A DNA stretch of 39,887 nucleotides. Origin: Gammaproteobacteria bacterium (GTDB taxonomy: Bacteria > Pseudomonadota > Gammaproteobacteria > AKS1). Position 1 is the first letter of the stretch. Each line of letters opens with the position of its first letter. A program made the translations under genes and the position numbers. The notes below the pieces were generated by a model. It worked only from the letters and a program-made list of their open reading frames with translations, was not told the origin of the DNA and searched no databases. Location: positions 1-39,887 of the forward strand of contig JALTKS010000099.1 in assembly GCA_027006175.1 (NCBI GenBank). Direction: 5' to 3'. Positions 17,192-20,911 of the stretch are shown here, one piece after another.

Positions 17192-18001
17192 TTATGATTT
17201 ATGTATGTCCATTTGTGGATACGGAATAGAAATACCTTGCTCATCGAAAGTTAATTTAACTTTCTCCGTCAAATCGAATTTAACCGCCCAGTAATCGCCA
17301 CTCTTGACCCATGGGCGTACCACAAAGTTAACGCTACTATCGGCAAGCTCAGAAACAGCGATCAATGTCTCTGGATCTTTCAAAATTCGCTCATCACTAT
17401 CAACAAGACCTCGTAAAATATCTTGTGCTTTTTTTAGATCATCGTCATAACCAATTCCAAATACCATATCAATACGGCGTGTATCACGAGCAGAGAAATT
17501 CGTAATCGTACCACCATAAATACTGCCATTCGGTACAATAATTTCCCTGTTATCACCGGTACGCATCATTGTGCTAAAAATACTGATCTTTTCAACGGTT
17601 CCTGAAACACCACCCGCATCAATAAAATCACCTGTTTTAAACGGACGGAACACAATCAACATCACACCGGAAGCAAAGTTTTGCAATGAACCTTGTAATG
17701 CTAAACCAACCGCTAAACCAGCTGCACCCAACAATGCGATTAATGATGTTGTATCAACACCTAATTGATCCAGTGCCGCAATAATAATAAATAGCAATAA
17801 AGCGGCTGATAGAATCGAACAAATAAAGTCTATTAAGATATTGTCCATCTTGGCTTTGTTTAATACTTTGCGAACAATACCCACTATAATTTTCGCAAGT
17901 ATGCGACCAACTATATAAATTAGCGCTGCAAGAACAATGTTAATTCCCCACGGAATTACATAAGTACTCAACATTGCCTGCACATCAATATTTTCCAACA
18001 T
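17192..18001 (-). CDS. mscS: Small-conductance mechanosensitive channel, MscS family
   Basis: Heptameric inner-membrane channel that opens under membrane tension to release solutes on hypo-osmotic shock. It is 269 residues long against 286 in E. coli. Membrane helices lie at about 12-36, 56-80 and 86-118. The pore-lining TM3 has the diagnostic LGAAGLAVGLALQGSLQNFASG pattern. The beta domain (VFRPFKTGDFI, VPNGSIYGGTITNFS) and the alpha/beta vestibule domain follow. The start has GGAGG close upstream. It is 19 bases downstream of metZ and therefore probably shares the SAM-II-controlled transcript. Confidence 0.95.
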   Translation of the reverse strand: MLENIDVQAMLSTYVIPWGINIVLAALIYIVGRILAKIIVGIVRKVLNKAKMDNILIDFICSILSAALLLFIIIAALDQLGVDTTSLIALLGAAGLAVGLALQGSLQNFASGVMLIVFRPFKTGDFIDAGGVSGTVEKISIFSTMMRTGDNREIIVPNGSIYGGTITNFSARDTRRIDMVFGIGYDDDLKKAQDILRGLVDSDERILKDPETLIAVSELADSSVNFVVRPWVKSGDYWAVKFDLTEKVKLTFDEQGISIPYPQMDIHKS

Positions 18002-18020: not shown

Positions 18021-19205
18021 TTAAATTAAACCCGCTAAACCATGTTGTAAATCTGCTTTTAAATCGTCAATATCCTCAAGACCAACCGCAATTCGTATTA
18101 GCCCATCTGATATCCCTGCATCGTCACGCTGTTCTGGTGTTAGGCGACCATGCGTGGTGGTTGCAGGATGTGTAATCGTTGTCCTGGTATCACCCAAATT
18201 AGCCGTTATCGATAACATTTCGGTTGCATCAATTAACCTCCATGCGTCATCCTTGCCACCTTTTAGTTCAAACGACAATACCGCACCCGGCCCACTTTGT
18301 TGTGACTGCGCAATAGCATATTGCGGATGTGTTTTAAGCCCTGGAAAATAGACTGCAGAGACGGCAGGTTGTGCTTGTAACCATTCAGCCAGTTGCTGTG
18401 CATTGTCGCAATGTGCTTTCATCCGTACAGATAATGTCTCAAGCCCTTTCAAAAAGGTCCAGGCATTAAACGGGCTCATACTTGGACCACAAGTGCGAAC
18501 GACACCAAAAATATCTTTACCGACAATATCTTCCTTGCCAATCACAGCCCCCCCCATGCAACGACCTTGTCCATCCAGAAACTTGGTGGCTGAATGAATA
18601 ACAATATCCGCACCTAAGGCTAAAGGACGTTGCAATACAGGCGTACACAAACAATTATCGACCACCAGTAAACAATCGCTGTCATGAGCAATGGTTGCCA
18701 GCTGATGAATATCGGCCACTTCACCTAAGGGATTTGAAGGTGTTTCCAAAAACAGGAATACGGTATTGTCCTGAATCGCTTCTTGCCATGCATTCAAGTC
18801 AGTTAAGCTTACGAATGTTGTTTCAATACCAAATTTAGCCAGATGTTGAGAAAACATAACCGTGGTGGTGCCAAAAATACTTTGTGACGCAACAATGTGA
18901 TCACCCGCTTTTAACAAGCCAAGACACGTTGATAGAATTGCCGCCATACCAGATGAGGTTGCTACACAGCGTTCACCACCTTCCAGTGCCGCTAAGCGTT
19001 GCTCAAACGTCCTTACGGTTGGGTTAGTGAAGCGTGAATAGATATTACCGGGTTCATCACCAGAGAACCGTGCAGCAGCTTCAGCCGCGCTACTAAATAC
19101 ATAACTGGATGTAGTAAAAATCGGTTCAGAATGTTCACCTTCAGCGGTACGCACTTGTCCTGCACGTACTGCGAGGGTATTAAATTTATAGTCTTTGTCA
19201 GACAT
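18021..19205 (-). CDS. metZ: O-succinylhomoserine sulfhydrylase MetZ
   Basis: PLP enzyme of the Cys/Met metabolism family that makes homocysteine directly from an O-acylhomoserine and sulfide, the direct sulfhydrylation route to methionine. It is 394 residues long. The PLP lysine is Lys208 in SATKFLDGQGR, the cofactor aspartate is Asp183 in VVDN, and YSRFTNPT and SSGMAAI are the usual phosphate-site and substrate segments. Position directly after purF matches metZ of Pseudomonas; discrimination from O-acetylhomoserine enzymes or MetB rests on this context and general resemblance. AAGGAGG precedes the ATG. Expression is governed by the SAM-II riboswitch upstream. Confidence 0.93.
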   Translation of the reverse strand: MSDKDYKFNTLAVRAGQVRTAEGEHSEPIFTTSSYVFSSAAEAAARFSGDEPGNIYSRFTNPTVRTFEQRLAALEGGERCVATSSGMAAILSTCLGLLKAGDHIVASQSIFGTTTVMFSQHLAKFGIETTFVSLTDLNAWQEAIQDNTVFLFLETPSNPLGEVADIHQLATIAHDSDCLLVVDNCLCTPVLQRPLALGADIVIHSATKFLDGQGRCMGGAVIGKEDIVGKDIFGVVRTCGPSMSPFNAWTFLKGLETLSVRMKAHCDNAQQLAEWLQAQPAVSAVYFPGLKTHPQYAIAQSQQSGPGAVLSFELKGGKDDAWRLIDATEMLSITANLGDTRTTITHPATTTHGRLTPEQRDDAGISDGLIRIAVGLEDIDDLKADLQHGLAGLI

Positions 19206-19262
19206 CCTGCCTCCTTATCCCATTCTATGAATACATGGTAACTGTTTTACAGGAGCAGGCAC

Positions 19263-19296
19263 AAAAAAACCTGCTCAACGATCGCTAAAGCAGGTT
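19263..19296 (-). terminator. SAM-controlled intrinsic terminator upstream of metZ
   Basis: AACCTGCT (19296-19289) pairs perfectly with AGCAGGTT (19275-19268), and the 3' arm runs into seven T in total on the minus strand. It begins one base after the SAM-II aptamer tail and ends 58 bases before the metZ ATG. It has no reading frame to terminate except the riboswitch leader, which identifies it as the expression platform. Confidence 0.88.
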
Positions 19297-19297
19297 G

Positions 19298-19353
19298 CCC
19301 TCCCTTTAGCTGCATTTATTAAGCGCCCGCAATCTGAGTCAAATCGGCGCTTT
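19298..19353 (-). ncRNA. SAM-II riboswitch controlling metZ
   Basis: The minus strand matches the SAM-II (metA-type) aptamer pattern closely. A P1 stem AAGCGCC/GGCGCTT encloses the conserved GATTTG and ATTGC loop elements, then come AATAAAT and GCAGCTAAAG, and a GGGAGGG tail that can form the pseudoknot with the P1 loop (CTC with GAG). GCTAAAG (19310-19304) is also perfectly complementary to CTTTAGC (19290-19284), giving an anti-terminator hairpin that competes with both the aptamer core and the terminator. Predicted logic: SAM bound, aptamer locked, terminator forms, metZ off. A consensus-like promoter lies just upstream. Confidence 0.88.
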
Positions 19354-19371
19354 AGTATTTCTAACGAGGCA

Positions 19372-19400
19372 AGTCTAGGCAGTGATGGGCTGCCTGTCAA
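19372..19400 (-). promoter_or_regulatory. Promoter of the metZ leader
   Basis: A perfect TTGACA (19400-19395), a 17-base spacer and TAGACT (19377-19372) lie on the minus strand directly after the purF stop. Predicted initiation is about ten bases before the aptamer. The spacer contains a 6-bp inverted repeat (AGGCAG/CTGCCT) that could be an operator or a remnant of a purF hairpin. Confidence 0.68.
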
Positions 19401-19402
19401 GA

Positions 19403-20911
19403 TTATGCGGTATTATGCATGTCCAGCGAAACTGATTTTTCTTTACCGGGTTCCTTGGCTGAATCTGAGCGCAATAATTCCAGTTGCTCAAGATAAAGAG
19501 AGGTAATTCCCTTGGTCACATATTCCCCATTAAATACCGAGGTATCGAACCTGGTTATGGATGTGTTTCCACGATGAACTGCATCAATGAGATCATCGAG
19601 ATCCTGAAAGATTAACTTGTCTGCACCAATTGCTTCTGCAACTTCTTCTTCGCTACGACCATGTGCAATTAGTTCCTGTGCACTTGGCATATCAATCCCA
19701 TAAACATTGGGGTAGCGGACGGGAGGCGCGGCGGACGCAAAATAAACTTTTCGCGCACCAGCATCACGCGCCATTTGTATTATTTGCTGTGAGGTTGTGC
19801 CCCGCACAATCGAGTCGTCAACCAACATTACATTTTTATCTCGAAATTCCAGATCAATGGCATTGAGCTTTTGGCGTACTGACTTCTTGCGCTGCTTCTG
19901 ACCTGGCATAATGAAGGTGCGACCAATATAGCGATTCTTAATAAACCCTTCGCGATACTTTACGCCAAGTTCATTTGCCAATTGTAATGCTGAGGTACGA
20001 CTGGTATCAGGAATAGGAATAACCACATCAATATCATGATCTGGCCAGACACGTTCAATCTTGTGTGAAAGATTTTCACCCATCCGTAACCGTGCTTTAT
20101 ACACAGAAACGCCATCCATAATAGAGTCGGGACGCGCAAAATAAACATGTTCAAAAATACACGGTGCAGGATCAGGATTACGTGCACATTGTCGCGTGTA
20201 TAACTCACCTTTCATGTCAATAAAGACAGCTTCACCCGGTTCGACATCTCGGATTAACTGGAAGCCTAATGCATCAACGGCAACACTTTCCGATGCCACC
20301 ATACTTTCAGAACCATTTTCAGTCTGACGACTACCAAAGACCAGCGGCCGAATACCATTCGGATCACGGAAAGCAACAATCCCATAGTCCGTAATCATGG
20401 CAACAACAGCATAACCACCACTGACACGCTGATGCACACGTGCAACAGCAGCAAAAATATCATTTTCATCAATACGAAGTTTGCCTAATGCCTGCAACTC
20501 ATGAGCAAAAATATTCAATAATACTTCGGAATCTGATTCCGTATTGATATGACGTAAATCTTCGCGGAATAACTCCTGTTTTAGTTCATCGGCATTTGTC
20601 AGGTTGCCATTATGAGCAAGGCTGATACCAAAAGGAGAGTTCACATAAAAAGGTTGTGCTTCAGCAGATGAGGCGCAGCCAGCTGTTGGATAACGAACAT
20701 GCCCTATGCCCATATCACCCGGCAGTTCGAGCATATGACGTGTATGAAAAACATCTCGCACCAAACCGTTGCTCTTGCGCAGATGTAATCGACCGTTATG
20801 GCACGTAATAATACCCGCGGCATCTTGCCCACGATGCTGTAAGACAGTTAAACCATCATAGAGCGTTTGGTTTACTGAACTACTACCAACAACACCAATA
20901 ATGCCACACAT
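19403..20911 (-). CDS. purF: Amidophosphoribosyltransferase
   Basis: First committed enzyme of purine synthesis: transfers glutamine-derived ammonia to PRPP. It is 502 residues long (E. coli 505). The sequence starts MCGIIGVVG, with the glutaminase nucleophile Cys2 exposed once Met1 is removed and no propeptide. GHVRYPTAG and LAHNGNL belong to the glutaminase site, and [13 protein letters not shown] (about 365-378) is the PRPP-binding loop. It follows cvpA by ten bases with GAGG nine bases before the ATG, the conserved cvpA-purF pair. Confidence 0.98.

Follow-up and report, generated by a model that had tools for sequence, protein, structure and literature searches.

A SAM-II leader ahead of metZ in a gammaproteobacterium: a predicted transcriptional OFF switch with many relatives below the Rfam cut-off

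Introduction

The SAM-II riboswitch class (SAM_alpha, metA element; Rfam RF00521) was described by Corbino et al. in 2005, who reported selective binding of SAM and proposed a transcriptional OFF switch (PMC1273637). Occurrence of the class in gammaproteobacteria was reported in 2007, together with terminators as its commonest platform in alpha- and betaproteobacteria (PMC2258182), and again in 2009 (PMC2704228). A SAM-II element acting by termination ahead of Sinorhizobium meliloti metZ (sRNA RZ) was published by Scheuer et al. in 2022 (PMC9373788). Finally, a comparative study of Rfam motifs in about 200 proteobacterial genomes gave SAM_alpha as confined to Rhizobiales and Rhodobacterales and reported as new a betaproteobacterial metXZ element (Leyn et al. 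2014, PMC4239095).

The leader described here lies upstream of metZ in a gammaproteobacterial stretch of 39,887 nt, hereafter the window. It shares with RF00521 the P1 stem, the P2 pseudoknot and the conserved core, and is also alike in having a promoter a few bases before P1, a terminator past P2 and a methionine gene downstream. It differs from the family in its score, which is below gathering, and in its gammaproteobacterial consensus, GCGCC-GATTTGA-CAGCTTGC-GGGCGC. The S. meliloti element, likened by description, has the same gene, aptamer class and terminator-type platform, but its host is an alphaproteobacterium. A sequence-only reading of the window had considered direct termination in a gammaproteobacterial purF-metZ context worth recording. 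Since gammaproteobacterial SAM-II, the terminator type and a terminating metZ SAM-II have all been published, the layout is not unusual: the leader is an ordinary SAM-II, and its class, its occurrence in gammaproteobacteria and termination ahead of metZ were already known. The metXZ element, again likened by description, is a metX/metZ leader in which a terminator follows a possible pseudoknot of two helices, and may itself be SAM-II.

Results

The leader elements occupy the minus strand of 19253-19400, between purF and metZ, where they can be read directly. From 19400 to 19253 their order is TTGACA-N17-TAGACT, AAGCGCC-GATTTGACTCAGATTGC-GGGCGCTT-AATAAAT-GCAGCTAAAG, 9 bases, CCTGCTTTAGCGATCGTTGAGCAGG, seven T and GTGCCTGCTC. 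The features of the locus are the following.

19403-20911, minus strand: purF, the upstream neighbour (TIGR01134 above cut-off)
19372-19400, minus strand: sigma-70-type promoter TTGACA-N17-TAGACT, beginning 2 bases past the purF stop codon
19400-19395 and 19377-19372, minus strand: promoter hexamers TTGACA and TAGACT, with a 17-base spacer
19301-19354, minus strand: SAM-II aptamer (RF00521 and model R1 matches)
19346-19352, minus strand: P1 5' strand AAGCGCC (sequence; P1 covariation)
19329-19336, minus strand: P2 (pseudoknot) 5' strand CAGATTGC (sequence; conserved alignment columns)
19321-19327, minus strand: P1 3' strand GGCGCTT (sequence; P1 covariation)
19304-19310, minus strand: GCTAAAG, P2 3' strand and putative antiterminator 5' strand
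19284-19290, minus strand: CTTTAGC, putative antiterminator 3' strand, inside the terminator 5' half
19270-19294, minus strand: terminator hairpin CCTGC...GCAGG, -10.5 kcal/mol (folding; kept in relatives)
19263-19269, minus strand: terminator U7 tract (sequence)
19253-19260 (motif region 19253-19262), minus strand: post-U-tract arm GCCTGCTC, complementary to the terminator 3' arm
18021-19205, minus strand: metZ, O-succinylhomoserine sulfhydrylase, the predicted controlled gene (NCBIfam NF006003 and TIGR01325 above cut-off)
17192-18001, minus strand: MscS-family channel gene, 19 bases past metZ (MscS subfamily match below its cut-off)

The promoter and the aptamer motifs listed by the sequence-only reading (AAGCGCC/GGCGCTT, GATTTG, ATTGC, AATAAAT and GCAGCTAAAG) are all present on the minus strand. 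Its perfect complementarity between GCTAAAG (19310-19304) and CTTTAGC (19290-19284) was recovered, as was the gap between metZ and mscS. The terminator, which it had placed one base after the aptamer, has a stem (CCTGC, from 19294) that begins 9 bases past GCTAAAG.

A default Rfam scan at gathering thresholds reported only tRNAs in the whole window, because the RF00521 score of the leader lies below gathering. In a permissive scan of 19200-19450 with all 4227 families, RF00521 matched over its full model length with 32.0 bits (E 8.8e-6), against a gathering score of 36 bits, which is a curation threshold and not a biological feature. The orthologue of the same genus (G001:C2:138146-138220) reaches 36.4 bits and passes it. 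As the window score was sub-gathering, a second model, R1, was built from 47 aligned aptamers of relatives, none of them from this genus, gathered via RF00521 hits, metZ leaders and the SAM-II motif. The leader element scored 71.4 bits with R1 (E 5.8e-19), and the runner-up in the window 9.8 bits; given how its set was gathered, R1 is independent of the genus, though it does depend on the SAM-II definition, and its E-values should be read as rough. The two E-values exclude chance for the aptamer. The SAM-II long loop family RF01726, with which the window has the core letters GATTTGACT, ATTGC and GCTAAAG in common, was rejected, its 16.6 bits falling short of the required 44.

The window P1 is a seven-pair stem enclosing the GATTTG...TTGC loop. 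Pairing in P1 reaches 97% among relatives, and four of its six pairs show changes on both sides. In the P2 pseudoknot, formed by loop TTGC with GCTAAA, the GC-GC pairs are invariant and the outer pair 35-73 covaries; GCTAAA is invariant across the 47 aligned aptamers. In the R1 alignment the window keeps all the SAM-II core letters (GATTTG, TTGC, AAAT and GCTAAA), whose contact roles were reportedly seen in the crystal structure of Gilbert et al. (2008). Syntenic copies occur in all four genus members, one of which is a Sulfuriflexus sp. Judged by sequence, membership of the leader aptamer in SAM-II is established. The sequence-only reading had let this identification stand or fall with an above-threshold hit of the Rfam covariance model: taken literally, the window hit falls short, although the genus orthologue passes and R1 matches strongly, and the identity itself is borne out by comparison across dozens of genomes, by R1 and by covariation.

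A second SAM-II is found in the same genome upstream of metK (L032 1501-1576; G000:C118:32404-32479), with its own TTGACA-TATAAT promoter and its own terminator. Both copies thus have the gene context of the class, metZ here and metK there. A total of 88 leaders were collected, of which 71 precede metZ and 6 metK; others precede metF, metX, metN and a cysB-like gene. Since some of the 88 were gathered by searching for metZ, the metZ share is biased upward. The downstream genes, named from their protein sequences, are methionine and SAM genes. At L159 the SAM-II lies about 230 bases before the cysB-like gene, which encodes a LysR-type regulator, a position that would link SAM sensing to cysteine control. 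At L224 and L227 SAM-II precedes metX, and to judge from MetX the two genomes look betaproteobacterial. At L235, L239-L245 and L250 the SAM-II is a variant in which P1 and GCTAAA are separated by an insertion, often a hairpin; R1 hits confined to P1 were considered as false positives, an explanation that was rejected since most of the inspected ones proved to be SAM-II interrupted ahead of GCTAAA by an insertion. Tandem aptamers occur at L246, L247 and L059, in some of which the first has a terminator and the second lies near the start codon. Such tandems are not new, as 44 have been described (PMC9481103).

Adjacency of purF and metZ is common across the class. In loci that have both the aptamer and purF, 196-302 bases separate the aligned purF and metZ; in loci lacking the aptamer the gap is mostly shorter and in a few long. 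An mscS-like gene follows metZ in 4/4 genus genomes and in 0 of about 105 other loci, one further positive locus (L071) being from the same genome as L003. mscS was therefore rejected as a conserved operon member, its linkage being confined to the genus. From the spacing, co-control of mscS with metZ is plausible.

The distribution of SAM-II was assessed in 369 genomes of the class, representing 271 genera. The grouping is probably that of GTDB, which places betaproteobacteria within Gammaproteobacteria. RF00521 was found in 118/369 genomes at E <=1e-3 and in only 30/369 above gathering, compared with 183/369 genomes and 133/271 genera for R1, a few of them weak (E near 1e-4); owing to the grouping, these shares do not refer to gammaproteobacteria in the older sense. 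The RF00521 gathering score thus misses most SAM-II copies in the class, and SAM-II is far commoner in gammaproteobacteria, as grouped here, than the Rfam cut-off suggests. MetJ, the textbook methionine repressor, was found in 4/369 genomes and in none of the R1-positive ones.

The promoter scan found 1 site where 1.0 was expected, so that the promoter taken by itself does not exceed chance. Among related leaders, 66/84 have a site of at least 9/12 at the promoter position, compared with 4.7 expected from shuffles, and it mostly ends 5-10 bases before P1. This constant position supports a promoter of the leader's own. The hairpin 19270-19294 was not flagged by the terminator scan, presumably because of its bulge or large loop. 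When the hairpins were folded in isolation in silico, the antiterminator (GCUAAAG-CUUUAGC) had -12.5 and the terminator -10.5 kcal/mol. The unbound leader, folded up to the U tract, prefers the antiterminator, and the terminator forms when the aptamer strands are held. With a complete U tract, however, the minimum of the free RNA already includes the terminator. This counts against a switch, and switching must therefore rest on timing.

The comparison was extended to 74 leaders with a U tract; those lacking one were left out and may act differently. Upstream of the U tract, complementarity to GCTAAAG of at least 6 Watson-Crick pairs was found in 53% of the 74, compared with 2.7% after shuffling, and the pairing meets the terminator 5' arm in 47/52 leaders where both helices are callable. 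On the other side, 21/74 leaders have fewer than 5 such pairs, which speaks against a switch. By sequence and energy, antiterminator and terminator are mutually exclusive and a U tract follows, as in a transcription-terminating riboswitch. The comparative pairing and the window complementarity support the terminator/antiterminator layout that had been proposed from the window alone.

Directly past the U tract, most leaders carry the motif R-T-G-C-C-Y-G-C, which pairs in fixed register with the terminator 3' arm. In the window this arm forms 7-8 base pairs in silico (-13.3 kcal/mol). At least 5 Watson-Crick post-U pairs are present in 24/74 SAM-II leaders, compared with 6.6% of 137 terminator-like control sites, which were loosely defined and taken from the collected loci. 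Matching within individual loci that goes further than the common consensus is weak, the observed value being reached by 24/2000 permutations in a test where kinship was handled only by removing near-identical rows. The motif is absent before metK. No description of it was found in those parts of the literature that were covered.

Discussion

Antiterminator complementarity and a constant promoter position, both common to related leaders (GCUAAA with UUUAGC for the former), together support a transcriptional OFF switch. The leader is very probably a SAM-II riboswitch of this type for metZ, whose transcription start, SAM binding, direction of response and termination are predicted. Transcription would begin shortly before P1, from the promoter directly behind purF. 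At high SAM, the ligand would hold the P1/P2 pseudoknot and keep GCUAAAG occupied, so that the CCUGC...GCAGG hairpin and U7 would terminate transcription. At low SAM, GCUAAAG would pair with CUUUAGC in the terminator 5' half and block the terminator, and metZ would be transcribed, perhaps with mscS.

Control could also act at two levels, termination being followed in the read-through RNA by translation control, with the terminator 5' arm CCUGCUUU pairing with the metZ ribosome-binding site AGGAGGCAGG. The full leader does fold in this way in silico, and the eight-pair complementarity is present in 4/4 genus members. Yet CCU pairs with any AGGAGG site, and over 52 leaders the mean helix is 5.65 compared with 5.30 in shuffled sequences; as a general second control the pairing has no support beyond the genus, and we consider the two-level arrangement improbable. 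The sub-threshold Rfam score and a terminator that does sit behind purF might instead suggest a SAM-II-like relic, or a chance likeness next to an ordinary purF terminator, devoid of regulation. This is contradicted by the R1 score, the covariation, the syntenic copies throughout the genus and a promoter lying between purF and the terminator; it is largely excluded and was rejected as very improbable. That the aptamer senses a related ligand, such as SAH, draws on the fact that SAM is assigned here from sequence; with every conserved core letter kept and the selective SAM binding of the class (PMC1273637), it is barely credible.

The OFF switch ahead of metZ may have a third arm. The RTGCCYGC motif may lock the read-through state, and a broader proposal is that it captures the terminator 3' arm after passage of the polymerase, thereby locking read-through, and that such leaders are a main methionine control in gammaproteobacteria lacking MetJ. 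We hold this proposal as a whole to be possible, though rather unlikely.

The blind spot in the Rfam cut-off matters more than a single new SAM-II before a methionine gene. Revising the RF00521 model or its threshold would set many annotations right.
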